In this document: in pieces, positions 3,795 to 29,657 of the stretch
How positions within the stretch are numbered: the first letter of the stretch is position 1
Layout: each line of letters begins with the position of its first letter
Virus record (IMG/VR): IMGVR_UViG_3300025000_000288
Span: 1-33,832 of that record
Source of the DNA: a virus
Strand: one strand, 5' to 3'
DNA: 33,832 nucleotides
Translations under genes and position numbers: made by a program
The notes under the pieces: generated by a model
Seen by the model: only the letters and a program-made list of their open reading frames with translations
What the model was told of the DNA's origin: nothing
Database searches by the model: none

Positions 3795-4333
3795 CAGATG
3801 CCCCTCGTGATGTCGGTGCAGTTGTCATTAAGGACAAAGGCCTGCACCGGCACCCCGGTGTTGCCGGATCCGGTCTGCACGCCGCTGTGGGTGTGGCTGC
3901 CGAAGAGCGCCGCGAAACGCTGATCGACAAAGCGCCGCAGCCCGGCCCGATCCCCGCCGAGATTGATCAGCGGTGAATTTACCGTGCAGCTGGTGGCGGC
4001 ATTGACCGTTACCATGCCGCCGCAGTCAATCAGAATTTCCCGGCCGCGCCGCAGATGGATTTTATCCCCCTCGTCGGTATACAGGCACACCTCGCCATTT
4101 TCTACCGCCACGCGGTATCTGCGGTCATCACTGGCCACCACGATGATGTGGTTTCCCTCGCGGACAGCAACCGCCTCGGCGCCTGCCAGCGGCCGGCTGG
4201 TGTATCCGTAATGCTGCATGTATTCCCGGGAGGAGACCGTTTCCCCGGCATAACCGCTGAAGGCGGCCAGCTTAATCGCCCCCTCGACCACACTATTAAT
4301 GATACAGCGGATCATGCCGCGCAGCCTGGTCAT
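3794..4333 (-). CDS. Mu gp45-like baseplate spike protein
   Basis: 179-aa homologue of Mu gp45, the trimeric spike at the tip of the tail tube that punctures the outer membrane. The N-terminal half has the OB-fold-like part (FSGYAGETVSSREYMQHYGYTSRPLAGAEAV). The middle is beta-rich (HIIVVASDDRRYRVAVENGEVCLYTDEGDKI), and the C-terminal third repeats short strands expected for the triple beta-helix. It ends with a GSHTHSGVQTG segment; HxH residues at this place bind the iron ion at the apex in related spikes. The ATG overlaps the end of the gpP-like gene. Confidence 0.85.
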   Translation of the reverse strand: MTRLRGMIRCIINSVVEGAIKLAAFSGYAGETVSSREYMQHYGYTSRPLAGAEAVAVREGNHIIVVASDDRRYRVAVENGEVCLYTDEGDKIHLRRGREILIDCGGMVTVNAATSCTVNSPLINLGGDRAGLRRFVDQRFAALFGSHTHSGVQTGSGNTGVPVQAFVLNDNCTDITRGI

Positions 4334-24626: not shown

Positions 24627-24788
24627 TTACTTCACGGCCCGCAGCTCCTGTCGCCGGTTCGCCTGCTTGTTCAGCTCGGCCTGCATGGTCCGCATCCAGG
24701 TCAATACCAGGTCGAGCCGTTCCTTGAGATTGACCACGGCACCCATGGCCATGGTGAGCTGATCGTCAATCTTGCGTTGTTGGCTCAT
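24627..24788 (-). CDS. 53-aa helical protein, in-frame internal start
   Basis: Starts at ATG 24788 with GGAGGT six bases upstream, an excellent site. Encodes MSQQRKIDDQLTMAMGAVVN, then a helical stretch with LKERLDLVLTWMRTMQAEL. It is in the same frame as the antirepressor-like gene, so it can also be made as the tail of that protein. The ATG overlaps the stop of the +1-frame mini-gene (ATGA). Likely a separate small protein. Function unknown. Confidence 0.6.
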   Translation of the reverse strand: MSQQRKIDDQLTMAMGAVVNLKERLDLVLTWMRTMQAELNKQANRRQELRAVK

Positions 24789-25469
24789 GCGTCCACCTCC
24801 ACCTCGGTTTCCGGTTTGATGGACAGGCCGCGGACCACCGGCGCCGGCCGCCGGCCGTGCGGCAGCCGCATGGTCTCGAAGGAAGTCTTCACCCGGCTCT
24901 GCCCTGGGCTTCGTGCCATTGGCCCGCTCGATGGCCTTCTCCAGCAGGCCTGATTCAAGGCGGTAAATGATGGTGGTCAGCTTGTCTACCATATTGAGCA
25001 AGTCGGCAACGGGTGCCGGCTTCGGCTGGCTTGGATTGCCGAAAGCGCCGAAAAACTTTTCATAGAGCTCATCACCAATCACATCCCGGAAAGAATTGAT
25101 TGACGTGGCTGCCTCTTCCAGAGTGGAGAAGGCCCTCATGATCTGCACCGCCCTGGCGGCGGCCACCGGACTCTTAAGCACCGCAGACAGCATATTTGCT
25201 CCCATGCGGGTGAAAGCCATCGGGCGATATTGCTCTCCGGCATAAAATTTGGTCACATTTTGTGACCGAATTATTTCTACCTCTTCCGCAGAAAGCCGGA
25301 AGCAGAAATCTGGCTTCGGGAATCTTTCCTGGTTTCGCTTAACCGCCTGGTTTACCTGCTTTGCGCTCACCTCGTACACTTCTGCAGCATCCTGGGCCAG
25401 CATTACCGGAGGGCGATTCGGCAGGTTGATAATCTTGTTCTGGATGTCTTTAATGGTTAACTCATTCAT
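24627..25469 (-). CDS. ORF6N-domain antirepressor-like protein
   Basis: 280 aa from ATG 25469, with AGGAGG seven bases upstream; an earlier GTG is less likely. Residues 14 to 115 match the ORF6N domain of phage antirepressors: VMLAQDAAEVYEVSAKQVNQ, then RFPKPDFCFRLSAEEVE, then MAFTRMGANMLSAVLKS. A helical part follows (LLNMVDKLTTIIYRLESGLLEKAIERANG). From about 188 to 227 the sequence turns into Arg/Ala/Gly/Pro-rich text that is out of register with a better frame, and then runs into the 53-aa protein. The original stop may have been lost by an indel. It is preceded by a C4-like RNA and leader, as in P1/P22 ant genes. Confidence 0.75.
   Translation of the reverse strand: MNELTIKDIQNKIINLPNRPPVMLAQDAAEVYEVSAKQVNQAVKRNQERFPKPDFCFRLSAEEVEIIRSQNVTKFYAGEQYRPMAFTRMGANMLSAVLKSPVAAARAVQIMRAFSTLEEAATSINSFRDVIGDELYEKFFGAFGNPSQPKPAPVADLLNMVDKLTTIIYRLESGLLEKAIERANGTKPRAEPGEDFLRDHAAAARPAAGAGGPRPVHQTGNRGGGGRMSQQRKIDDQLTMAMGAVVNLKERLDLVLTWMRTMQAELNKQANRRQELRAVK
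24785..24919 (-). CDS. 44-aa basic mini-gene in the +1 frame of the ORF6N gene
   Basis: ATG 24919 to TGA 24785. The product MARSPGQSRVKTSFETMRLP continues with GRRPAPVVRGLSIKPETEVEVDA. It looks far more protein-like than the same DNA read in the ORF6N frame. Its stop overlaps the ATG of the next gene. It has no clear ribosome site, so it may depend on the upstream gene. Function unknown. Confidence 0.45.
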   Translation of the reverse strand: MARSPGQSRVKTSFETMRLPHGRRPAPVVRGLSIKPETEVEVDA

Positions 25470-25476
25470 GTTGCTA

Positions 25477-25592
25477 CCTCCTGGAGAAAAAAGTAATTCA
25501 CCGCCCACTTGCTACCAACAAAAAAAGGCGGAACCTGGCAGGTTGGTAGACCGGTCTCCAGGAGTCGGCTGCCCTTGCGGGCACCTGCCAGG
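25477..25592 (-). promoter_or_regulatory. Leader of the ORF6N gene with C4 target sites and switchable hairpins
   Basis: The leader holds CTACCAACC (25549-25541, site a) and TCCGCCT (25532-25526, site b), which are exact complements of two segments of the upstream RNA. Site a can also pair with a local GTTGGTAG (25518-25511). A 10-bp stem (25534-25543 with 25583-25592), followed after seven bases by a U7 run, competes with it. Ribosome site AGGAGG at 25482-25477. The layout suggests a leader whose folding decides expression of the antirepressor. Confidence 0.6.
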
Positions 25593-25626
25593 CCCGCCCT
25601 ATAAAGTGCTGGCCTGGTTGTGGACA

Positions 25627-25656
25627 CAAAAAAACCGCCGTAATGCTGCTGGCGGT
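25627..25656 (-). terminator. Intrinsic terminator of the C4-like RNA
   Basis: On the minus strand ACCGCC (25656-25651), an 11-base loop, GGCGGT (25639-25634), then a run of T. The flanks GGACACA and TGTGTCC can pair as well. It is a textbook intrinsic terminator and lies between the early genes and the antirepressor gene. Confidence 0.75.
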
Positions 25657-25730
25657 GTGTCCGCCTGAAGATGATCCGGGCTACCAACCCGGCCACGGAT
25701 TTTGCCGTGGCATGATTATCGTAGCCCGTG
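25627..25730 (-). ncRNA. C4-like antisense RNA
   Basis: About 104 bases on the minus strand. Outer stem CGGGCTAC/GTAGCCCG (25728-25721 with 25684-25677) encloses a 7-bp hairpin GCCACGG/CCGTGGC. Next come GGTTGGTAG (25689-25681, a') and AGGCGGA (25666-25660, b'), then a terminator hairpin with a U7 run. Both a' and b' are exact complements of sites a and b in the leader of the ORF6N gene. This is the arrangement of the C4 RNA that represses ant in P1/P7/P22-type phages. Assignment is by architecture; I could not run a covariance search. No strong promoter was found in front of it. Confidence 0.55.
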
Positions 25731-25740: not shown

Positions 25741-25776
25741 ATGCAAGCGAAAAGTTTGTTGTGGTATCGTCTTGAT

Positions 25777-26394: not shown

Positions 26395-26739
26395 TCAGAA
26401 CAGCCGCAGCTGTTTTTCCGCTATTTTTTCTGCCCGCACCCGGGCCATGATCCGATAAAACCACTGCTCGGAAATCTGGTATTCCCGGCAGAGTTCCAGC
26501 TTGTTCCGGCCATTGTATTTCCGGTAGATCTCCAGATCGCGCAGCCTGGTCTGCCACTCCTGGCCCTTGGGCACATAGATGTTCAGCCCGGCCCACCGCT
26601 GTCTGGTCCGTTCCGCCGCCGCCACGGCGATCTCCCTGGCTTTTTCCGGATCGATCTTGTACTCGCCAAGCAGTTCGATCAGTTCATCGCGCAGATCGGC
26701 AAGGATCTCCGGATACTTGTCATCCTTTGTTTCCGCCAT
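26395..26739 (-). CDS. mor: Mor-family transcription activator
   Basis: 114 aa from ATG 26739; the longer frame start is within the gemA gene and has a poorer context. The Mor/C family is seen in EILADLRDELIELLGEY, IDPEKAREIAVAAAERTRQRWAGLNIYVPKGQEW and the HTH end RDLEIYRKYNGRNKLELCREYQISEQWFYRIMARVRAE. Mor is the last early gene of Mu and turns on the middle promoter; as no separate C is seen here, this protein may serve both middle and late promoters. It overlaps gemA by 20 bases. Confidence 0.9.
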   Translation of the reverse strand: MAETKDDKYPEILADLRDELIELLGEYKIDPEKAREIAVAAAERTRQRWAGLNIYVPKGQEWQTRLRDLEIYRKYNGRNKLELCREYQISEQWFYRIMARVRAEKIAEKQLRLF

Positions 26740-27169
26740 CTTCACCACCTTTCCCCCGTGCTTTTTCCCTGGCAACCCAGGCCTTGAGTGATTCGATCAC
26801 CATGCTGTGCTGTTCTGGGGCCAGCCACTGAAGCGCATCGACGCCGGTCAGCCGTTTGACGTACTTCACCAGGGCCTCCTCGGATGGATTGCGCAGGGCC
26901 CCGAGATCGCGCAGAGTGAGCCACAGCGCCCTGATCTTGCGGGATCGCGGATCGCGGGCCATGGGCCTGCCGCTTTTCCCCGTTGCCCTGGCCGGCTGCC
27001 AGCCCTTTCGTTGCAGGATGTCCAACAGTTCCCCTACCTGGCGGCTGTTCAGCCTCTTTGATGATTCAACCCGGAAATGCTCCCGCAGCAGATCGCGGTA
27101 CTGCTGATCGGTCAGCCCTACATCCTTGACGGCAATATGGATTTTGGCGTAATCAGCTCTGGTCGGCAT
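26720..27169 (-). CDS. gemA: GemA (Gp16 family) regulatory protein
   Basis: 149 aa with the Gp16 pattern: ADYAKIHIAVKDVGLTDQQYRDLLREHFRVESSKRLNSRQVGELLDILQRKGWQP, then RDPRSRKIRALWLTLRDLGALRNPSEEALVKYVKRLTGVDALQWLAPEQHSMVIESLKAW. In Mu, GemA changes host DNA supercoiling and gene expression and lies just before mor, as here. GAGGAG six bases before the ATG. Confidence 0.92.
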   Translation of the reverse strand: MPTRADYAKIHIAVKDVGLTDQQYRDLLREHFRVESSKRLNSRQVGELLDILQRKGWQPARATGKSGRPMARDPRSRKIRALWLTLRDLGALRNPSEEALVKYVKRLTGVDALQWLAPEQHSMVIESLKAWVAREKARGKGGEDGGNKG

Positions 27170-29093: not shown

Positions 29094-29564
29094 TCATAAC
29101 AGGTGCAGCAGGGCGCGGCGAACTTCCGGCCGTTTGCACGGCTTGCCTTTCCGGTCATATTTGATGTGGAGCAGATGGGCCTGGACGGTTATCGCGGCTG
29201 CCGATCTCCCTGTCAGCAACGGCAGGCAGGCGCCTGTGCCGCCGGCAGGATAGTTTTCCCGCAGGATGCGGCATTCCTCCCCTGTCCAGCTTTTCTTGCG
29301 ATGAACCGACTTTCCGGTTGCTTCTTTCGGTATTTCAGCGGTCATTTCCTTCACCGTTACATTCGCCGGCAGCATCTTCCCGCCGGCCGCTATTTTCTTG
29401 CCGATGGCGCAGTCGATGCAGTTCTCGTGGCGCCGTTCTTCATAGAGGTCAACCCTGCCGCGCTGCGCCTTTTTCTGCCTGGCGAGACAAAGCTTGAAAA
29501 ATGATTCTTTGTTGGAAAGAGCCAGGCCGTTTCCGGCTTCGCGGCAGATGTTCTCGTTTTTCAT
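29094..29564 (-). CDS. Myb/SANT-like HTH protein with N-terminal Cys motif
   Basis: 156 aa. The first half has Cys pairs (ENCIDCAIGKKI). The second half carries a SANT/GcrA-like domain: KSWTGEECRILRENYPAGGTGACLPLLTGRSAAAITVQAHLLHIKY, with Trp and spaced helices as in phage proteins that bind DNA at early promoters. The ribosome site is weak (GGACGAA). A palindrome and hairpin lie just upstream. Likely an early regulator. Confidence 0.7.
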   Translation of the reverse strand: MKNENICREAGNGLALSNKESFFKLCLARQKKAQRGRVDLYEERRHENCIDCAIGKKIAAGGKMLPANVTVKEMTAEIPKEATGKSVHRKKSWTGEECRILRENYPAGGTGACLPLLTGRSAAAITVQAHLLHIKYDRKGKPCKRPEVRRALLHLL

Positions 29565-29590
29565 AAATTCGTCCAGGGCTGCTCGTCAGA

Positions 29591-29610
29591 CCAGGGCCGC
29601 CACGCCCTGG
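29591..29610. repeat. 7-bp hairpin next to the large palindrome
   Basis: CCAGGGC (29591-29597) and GCCCTGG (29604-29610) are inverted with a 6-base loop. No U run on either strand. It forms a tandem pair of hairpins with the palindrome three bases to the right, in the 93-base gap between two early genes. Confidence 0.5.
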
Positions 29611-29612
29611 TG

Positions 29613-29650
29613 ACCGGATCATATTGCCGGCGCCGGCAATATGATCCGGT
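29613..29650. repeat. 38-bp perfect palindrome without a spacer
   Basis: The half ACCGGATCATATTGCCGGC is followed at once by its exact reverse complement. Nineteen matching pairs with no loop are far more than expected by chance. It lies between two early genes, downstream of the 50-aa gene. It may extrude as a cruciform, bind a dimeric protein, or form a strong mRNA hairpin that limits read-through. No U run follows it on either strand. Confidence 0.85.
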
Positions 29651-29657
29651 TTCGCAA

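Follow-up and report, generated by a model that had tools for sequence, protein, structure and literature searches.

A Candidate Immunity Switch behind mor

Control of lysogeny in Mu-like phages is commonly attributed to the c repressor and Ner, and P1 and P7 have a switch in which a small antisense RNA silences an antirepressor gene. The locus described here raises the question of whether a Mu-like phage carries a switch of the P1/P7 kind and which of its RNAs would be the regulator. It lies in the window, by which we mean the whole IMG/VR virus record IMGVR_UViG_3300025000_000288 (33,832 bases), in which the Mu-like phage markers gemA, mor, a Mu-type transposition protein, terminase, portal and tail sheath are present. 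Just upstream of the locus and on the same, minus strand are gemA (26720–27169; PF06252, 2.4e-34) and a gene for a mor-type transcription activator (26395–26775; PF08765, 5.1e-30), as expected from the original prediction, which had placed a C4-like circuit after mor in a Mu-type early region. No repressor gene was recognized in the window, which stops inside the early region, and no close relatives of the Mor protein were found in viral contigs. The early region of the same phage also contains a Hammerhead ribozyme type II (RF02276, 58.1 bits, E 1.1e-9) at 29573–29657 on the minus strand, directly 5′ of an ORF at 29094–29564.

The presumed controlled gene (24627–25469, minus strand) starts with an ATG at 25469 and encodes a 280-residue ORF6N-domain protein that, as had been proposed, is a predicted antirepressor (PF10543, 2.2e-22; PHROG anti-repressor, 6.6e-16). 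No close relatives of this protein were found in viral contigs, and the one distant match in genome contigs, in a Draconibacterium MAG, was uninformative.

The Upstream RNA Is the Target Leader and C4 Is the Next Element

Read along the minus strand, on which all elements below lie and along which their coordinates are given, the order is a promoter-like sequence, a1, b1, a terminator, C4 (b′, then a′), a2, b2 on the Shine-Dalgarno sequence, and the ORF6N start codon. The original prediction had correctly described an upstream RNA with its own terminator (25711–25628) but had taken it for C4 itself. In Rfam searches of the whole window, this RNA matched the sequence and fold, with terminator, of isrK (RF01394) at 54.8 bits, above the gathering threshold of 50 (E 2.8e-9). 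Its parts are hairpin 1, the a1 hairpin, b1, an anti-terminator/terminator and a U-run. With the region searched alone, c4-a1b1 (RF03163) also matched, at 25724–25673, with 35.2 bits (E 2.2e-7), 11.5 bits below its gathering threshold of 46.7. The C4 model (RF01695) matched farther down, at 25604–25521, with 44.5 bits against a gathering threshold of 45 (E 1.8e-7 and 3.7e-9). This match is 0.5 bit under the curated cut-off, runs end to end through model positions 1–87 and includes the closing stem, P2, P3 and both the a′ and b′ loops. The isrK and C4 matches thus stand in tandem, 23 nucleotides apart. The circuit itself had been recognized correctly, but because the Rfam models fall in this way, the roles in the original prediction have to be exchanged: the upstream RNA is the target leader, and C4 is the element that follows it. 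The stretch before the gene, formerly read as the leader, does hold complementary sites, but C4 itself sits there.

C4 and c4-a1b1 were both listed by Weinberg et al. 2010 (PMC2864571). The c4-a1b1 model matches the leaders of P1 and P7 above its cut-off, and the isrK model matches the same places below its own, with 35.1 and 43.7 bits. Because both models match these two leaders, isrK and c4-a1b1 describe one kind of leader. This joins two literatures, one in which IsrK is an activator and one in which C4 is a repressor. The two models also overlap in the window (25628–25724), in P1, P7 and APSE, and in Mu-like records. In Rfam, c4-a1b1 and C4 both belong to clan CL00128 and isrK belongs to none, so that there are two families for one leader.

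A putative σ70-like promoter lies at 25746–25718, with TTGCAT (25746–25741), a 17-nucleotide spacer and TACGAT (25723–25718), and ends 6 nucleotides before the isrK start. It is weak in the window, agreeing with the consensus at 8 of 12 positions, and a strict consensus promoter scan did not flag it; most aligned relatives have TTGACA at the same place. We considered transcription of the module driven by Mor. Against this, a TTGACA promoter directly follows the mor-like gene in one related record (G006), and for this reason a constitutive or repressor-controlled promoter seems more likely. A dyad, TGTGGT (25790–25785) and ACCACA (25765–25760), just upstream of the proposed promoter is a possible operator. 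We also noted an open frame (25466–25696, minus strand) with a GTG start and no ATG, which spans a1, b1 and C4 and whose TGA overlaps the ORF6N ATG; it recalls orf45-anrP of Gifsy-1, and no good start site was seen for it.

Complementarity of the a and b Words

The a1 target GGTTGGTAGC (25689–25680) is an exact complement of a′ in C4. The 9-nucleotide pair of the original prediction, GGTTGGTAG (25689–25681) with a′ CTACCAACC (25549–25541), proved correct and is in fact part of a triple, since the a1 word is repeated as a2, GTTGGTAGC (25519–25511); all three agree exactly. The word GTTGGTAG at 25519–25512, which had been considered for an alternative fold alone, is this a2, and the additional a2/b2 targets that lie between C4 and the gene had been overlooked.

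The b pair had been misassigned. AGGCGGA (25666–25660) and TCCGCCT (25532–25526) are, like the two a words, present at the positions given for them, but TCCGCCT forms the 3′ side of the stem that closes C4 and is no target-binding loop, and we rejected the pair for that reason. The true b′ loop lies elsewhere, is CTCCTGGAGA (25564–25555) and matches both b1 and b2. It is an exact 10-nucleotide complement of b2, TCTCCAGGAG (25487–25478), which overlaps the Shine-Dalgarno sequence AGGAGG (25482–25477), directly upstream of the ORF6N gene. In the b1 target TCTTCAGGCG (25671–25662), the first 8 nucleotides, TCTTCAGG (25671–25664), pair with b′ with one G-U.

In 2.5% of dinucleotide shuffles, the leader RNA had a 9-nucleotide complement in the 158 nucleotides that follow it; in 0.015%, it had one whose word also recurs downstream, as in a1-a′-a2. 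The predicted duplex of the C4 core with a2/b2 has an energy of −33.4 kcal/mol (1.6–2.6% of shuffles were as good), and that with a1/b1 has −40.5 kcal/mol (at most 0.2%).

Covariation of the Words in Related Modules

Viral contigs were scanned with isrK patterns. A strict pattern matched one contig only, and looser patterns matched at least about 120 each. One pattern left the a1 loop free, so that loci were picked without regard to complementarity. Among the 97 distinct matches listed for it, some of which are chance pattern matches, 73 have a complement of at least 7 nucleotides to their own a1 downstream, usually about 120 nucleotides away, compared with 11% when a1 is paired with other loci. 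In most modules among these matches, the a word is repeated as a2 20–30 nucleotides further on. In at least about 70 viral contigs the a words vary in concert on a constant scaffold, and 29 distinct a′ words occur among the 73 listed modules picked by their a words. Within this set the a comparison is selected and hence no evidence; the b comparison is independent of the selection, and b′ matches its own b1 over a mean of 8.0 nucleotides against 5.7 between loci, and its own b2 over 9.5 against 7.0.

Compensatory change, whose absence from relatives had been named with the lack of a C4 match among the grounds for refuting the original prediction, was also evident in an alignment of nine sequences, namely the window, seven records with gemA and/or mor, and G001. 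In this alignment a1 and a′ are 100% paired with four doubly changed pairs, and a′ and a2 are 86% paired; the covariation scores of both were reached in 0 of 500 shuffles and lay above all slid controls. The closest scaffold among the matches listed, G051, has near-identical stems and carries TTGACAT in place of TTGGTAG at all three a places. The a and b words look, from these sequence comparisons, like exchangeable specificity labels, and superinfection compatibility might therefore be predictable from sequence.

A Predicted Attenuator Gated by b1

The intrinsic terminator (25656–25628) consists of ACCGCC and GGCGGT followed by a U-run that ends at 25628. In the free fold of the leader, a predicted anti-terminator hairpin, GGCGG ACACA CCGCC (25665–25651), forms instead: GGCGG (25665–25661) can pair with CCGCC (25655–25651), which doubles as the 5′ strand of the terminator. 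In partition function calculations on the window leader, the probability of the terminator was 0.10 in the free RNA, 0.98 with b1 occupied and 0.15 with a1 alone occupied, which agrees with the earlier suggestion that C4 pairing may switch termination.

Among the matches listed, 63 modules have a clear U-run, and their mean terminator probability rose from 0.62 to 0.88 with b1 occupied, as computed for equilibrium folding without cotranscriptional folding or C4 concentrations. A gain above 0.2 was computed for 28 of these modules and a loss above 0.2 for 4. The shared-strand geometry, in GGCGG/CCGCC and GGCGC/GCGCC versions, was found in 29 of the 63. Because the geometry is limited to these 29 modules and the prediction is reversed in 4, the attenuator step is not general; we hypothesize a b1-gated attenuator for a subset of modules, the window included, and this prediction is open to direct test.

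Placement of the Module near gemA and mor

Among the matches listed, 50 module records were searched, and GemA was found in 8 and Mor in 7. At least six other Mu-like records carry the module close to gemA or mor and on the strand of gemA. On that strand it follows gemA within about 0.6–2.4 kb in the window and in G006, G023, G043 and G051, and at 3.4 kb in G055; in G033 it sits between gemA and mor. G039 and G066 have it far from gemA/mor and on the opposite strand; of the two genes, mor alone was detected in G069, about 8 kb from the module on the same strand. The gene behind the module varies: it encodes an ORF6N protein in the window, G006, G043 and G069, Rha in G023 and G051, KilA-N in G033, Bro-N in G055 and P22_AR_N in G001.

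G006 is also a relative of the window by its terminase (81% identity) and is the only one of 21 terminase relatives with both elements above the cut-offs. Neither isrK nor C4 was matched in 19 of the 21, many of which are fragments, and in G009 isrK reached a weak 17.5 bits and C4 was not matched. G008 has gemA (118 bits) and no module. Because G008 has gemA without the module and only G006 has both elements, the module is, as far as these sequences indicate, optional in this phage group. Two terminase relatives, G015 and G016, have an ORF6N gene without the module; the gene in G015 is probably not the same gene as that of the window, because it lies about 8 kb from gemA.

We found no prior description of this recurrent placement in the literature searched, and none joining Mu-like phages with C4 antisense RNA, for which the limited search is weak evidence. 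We tentatively propose, at somewhat less than even confidence, that exchangeable isrK-C4-antirepressor cassettes dock repeatedly at the gemA-mor locus of Mu-like phages and that in many of these cassettes C4 acts on two levels, covering the Shine-Dalgarno sequence and breaking the b1 anti-terminator as an RNA-triggered, self-limiting attenuator. In the records described above, the known C4 switch recurs beside the gemA-mor genes of Mu-like phages.

Relation to Known Switches

The original prediction had likened the layout to the immI/C4-ant switch of P1, P7 and P22. The likeness to P1 and P7 holds in order, spacing and models, but P22 is not known to be a C4 system and uses the sar RNA with Mnt and Arc. 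The c4-icd-ant (immI) region of P1 and P7 has the same order of a1, b1, C4, a2, b2 and antirepressor, with the same C4 fold and target leader. The P1 record annotates a1 at 48255–48261, b1 at 48269–48276, C4 at 48343–48419, a2 at 48423–48429 and b2 at 48452–48459, with icd from 48470 and ant1 from 48688. Its spacing is near that of the window, with a few nucleotides from the C4 end to a2 and with b2 about 10 nucleotides before a start codon. Unlike P1 and P7, the window belongs to a Mu-like phage, has an ORF6N-type gene and has an intrinsic terminator with a predicted b1-gated anti-terminator. No icd-like small ORF follows b2 in the window, where the ORF6N start comes directly after it; in G006 there is a small ORF before ORF6N, with a 4-nucleotide overlap at the ORF6N start, like icd and ant1 of P1. 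The icd-like ORF belongs to the P1 arrangement and does not define C4 systems.

The isrK-STnc1160-orf45-anrP region of Gifsy-1 likewise has an isrK leader with a terminator, a complementary downstream RNA and an antirepressor-like gene (PMC4825925). There, the stable RNA STnc1160 follows IsrK and has complementary sequence in common with it, an arrangement that was compared to CI/seqA of phage P4 (Hershko-Shalev et al. 2016, PMC4825925). The upstream gene is antQ in Gifsy-1 and mor in the window, and the window lacks an orf45 whose start codon and Shine-Dalgarno sequence are clear. In P4, by description, the CI RNA is an antisense RNA between two targets, seqA and seqC, and its pairing favors termination (PMC4825925), but it controls replication genes and not an antirepressor.

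The isrK-C4 tandem also occurs in the satellite-like Pseudomonas phage phiAH14b and in other annotated phages and contigs. In APSE phages of Hamiltonella (e.g. LR794147) it is already annotated, before a Bro-N gene; these phages differ from the window in not being Mu-like, and no C4 target was recorded by the annotators. In Vibrio phage 10N.286.54.F9_PE001, which is P2-like, a stretch resembling the module leader of G006 (4001–4084) precedes a YoqD-like antirepressor gene and adjoins genes labeled PD-T4-9 defence.

Proposed Mechanism and Its Alternatives

Judged by its sequence, the circuit is a member of the known C4/isrK immunity family in a little-described place. This extends to Mu-like phages an RNA immunity switch that is classical but has received little study. 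The module of target leader, C4, second target and antirepressor gene very probably works in this Mu-like phage as the switch outlined here. A promoter just before 25711, where we infer that transcription starts, would make one transcript. C4 would be cut out of it, as is done by RNase P in P1, and would act in trans in two steps. In the first, the a′ and b′ loops would pair with a2 and b2, covering the ORF6N Shine-Dalgarno sequence and stopping translation. In the second, these loops would bind the a1 and b1 sites of the isrK-like leader; pairing with b1 would break the GGCGG/CCGCC hairpin and free CCGCC for the terminator, so that transcription would stop at about 25628 without reaching C4 or the antirepressor. 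C4 would in this way silence the antirepressor in the lysogen while restricting its own production, and its loss or titration would release the antirepressor to act on its presumed target and favor lytic growth.

The best surviving alternative is that the short isrK-like RNA (25711 to about 25628) is the regulator, pairing in trans with the C4 segment so as to unfold the readthrough mRNA or titrate C4 and turn the antirepressor on. Precedent comes from Gifsy-1, in which short IsrK was shown to activate translation of orf45-anrP, the downstream antirepressor-like gene (PMC4825925). The isrK score exceeds the C4 score, and the full window leader folds a1/b1 onto a′/b′ intramolecularly, like the inactive structure A of Gifsy-1. 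However, C4 RNA is the repressor in P1 and P7 with the same layout, and b′ fits b2 over the Shine-Dalgarno sequence (10 nucleotides) better than it fits b1 (8 nucleotides with a G-U), consistent with C4 being the RNA that acts. We regard activation by the short RNA as possible but rather unlikely; it and repression by C4 can coexist.

Another alternative is that the window phage carries a decayed or silent copy, a functionless remnant. The C4 and c4-a1b1 scores are both under the curated cut-offs, b1 has a mismatch and a G-U, and the promoter is weak, but the a words are in exact agreement at all three places, b2 fits over 10 nucleotides, the stems, terminator and Shine-Dalgarno sequence are intact and the ORF6N frame is open; a remnant is thus quite improbable. 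The reading that the complementarity arose by chance in an ordinary, terminator-bearing leader, for which only the shuffle frequency of a lone 9-nucleotide complement would speak, is already refuted by the rarity of the a triple in the same shuffles, by the matches to two Rfam families with E near 1e-9 and by the covariation in relatives.
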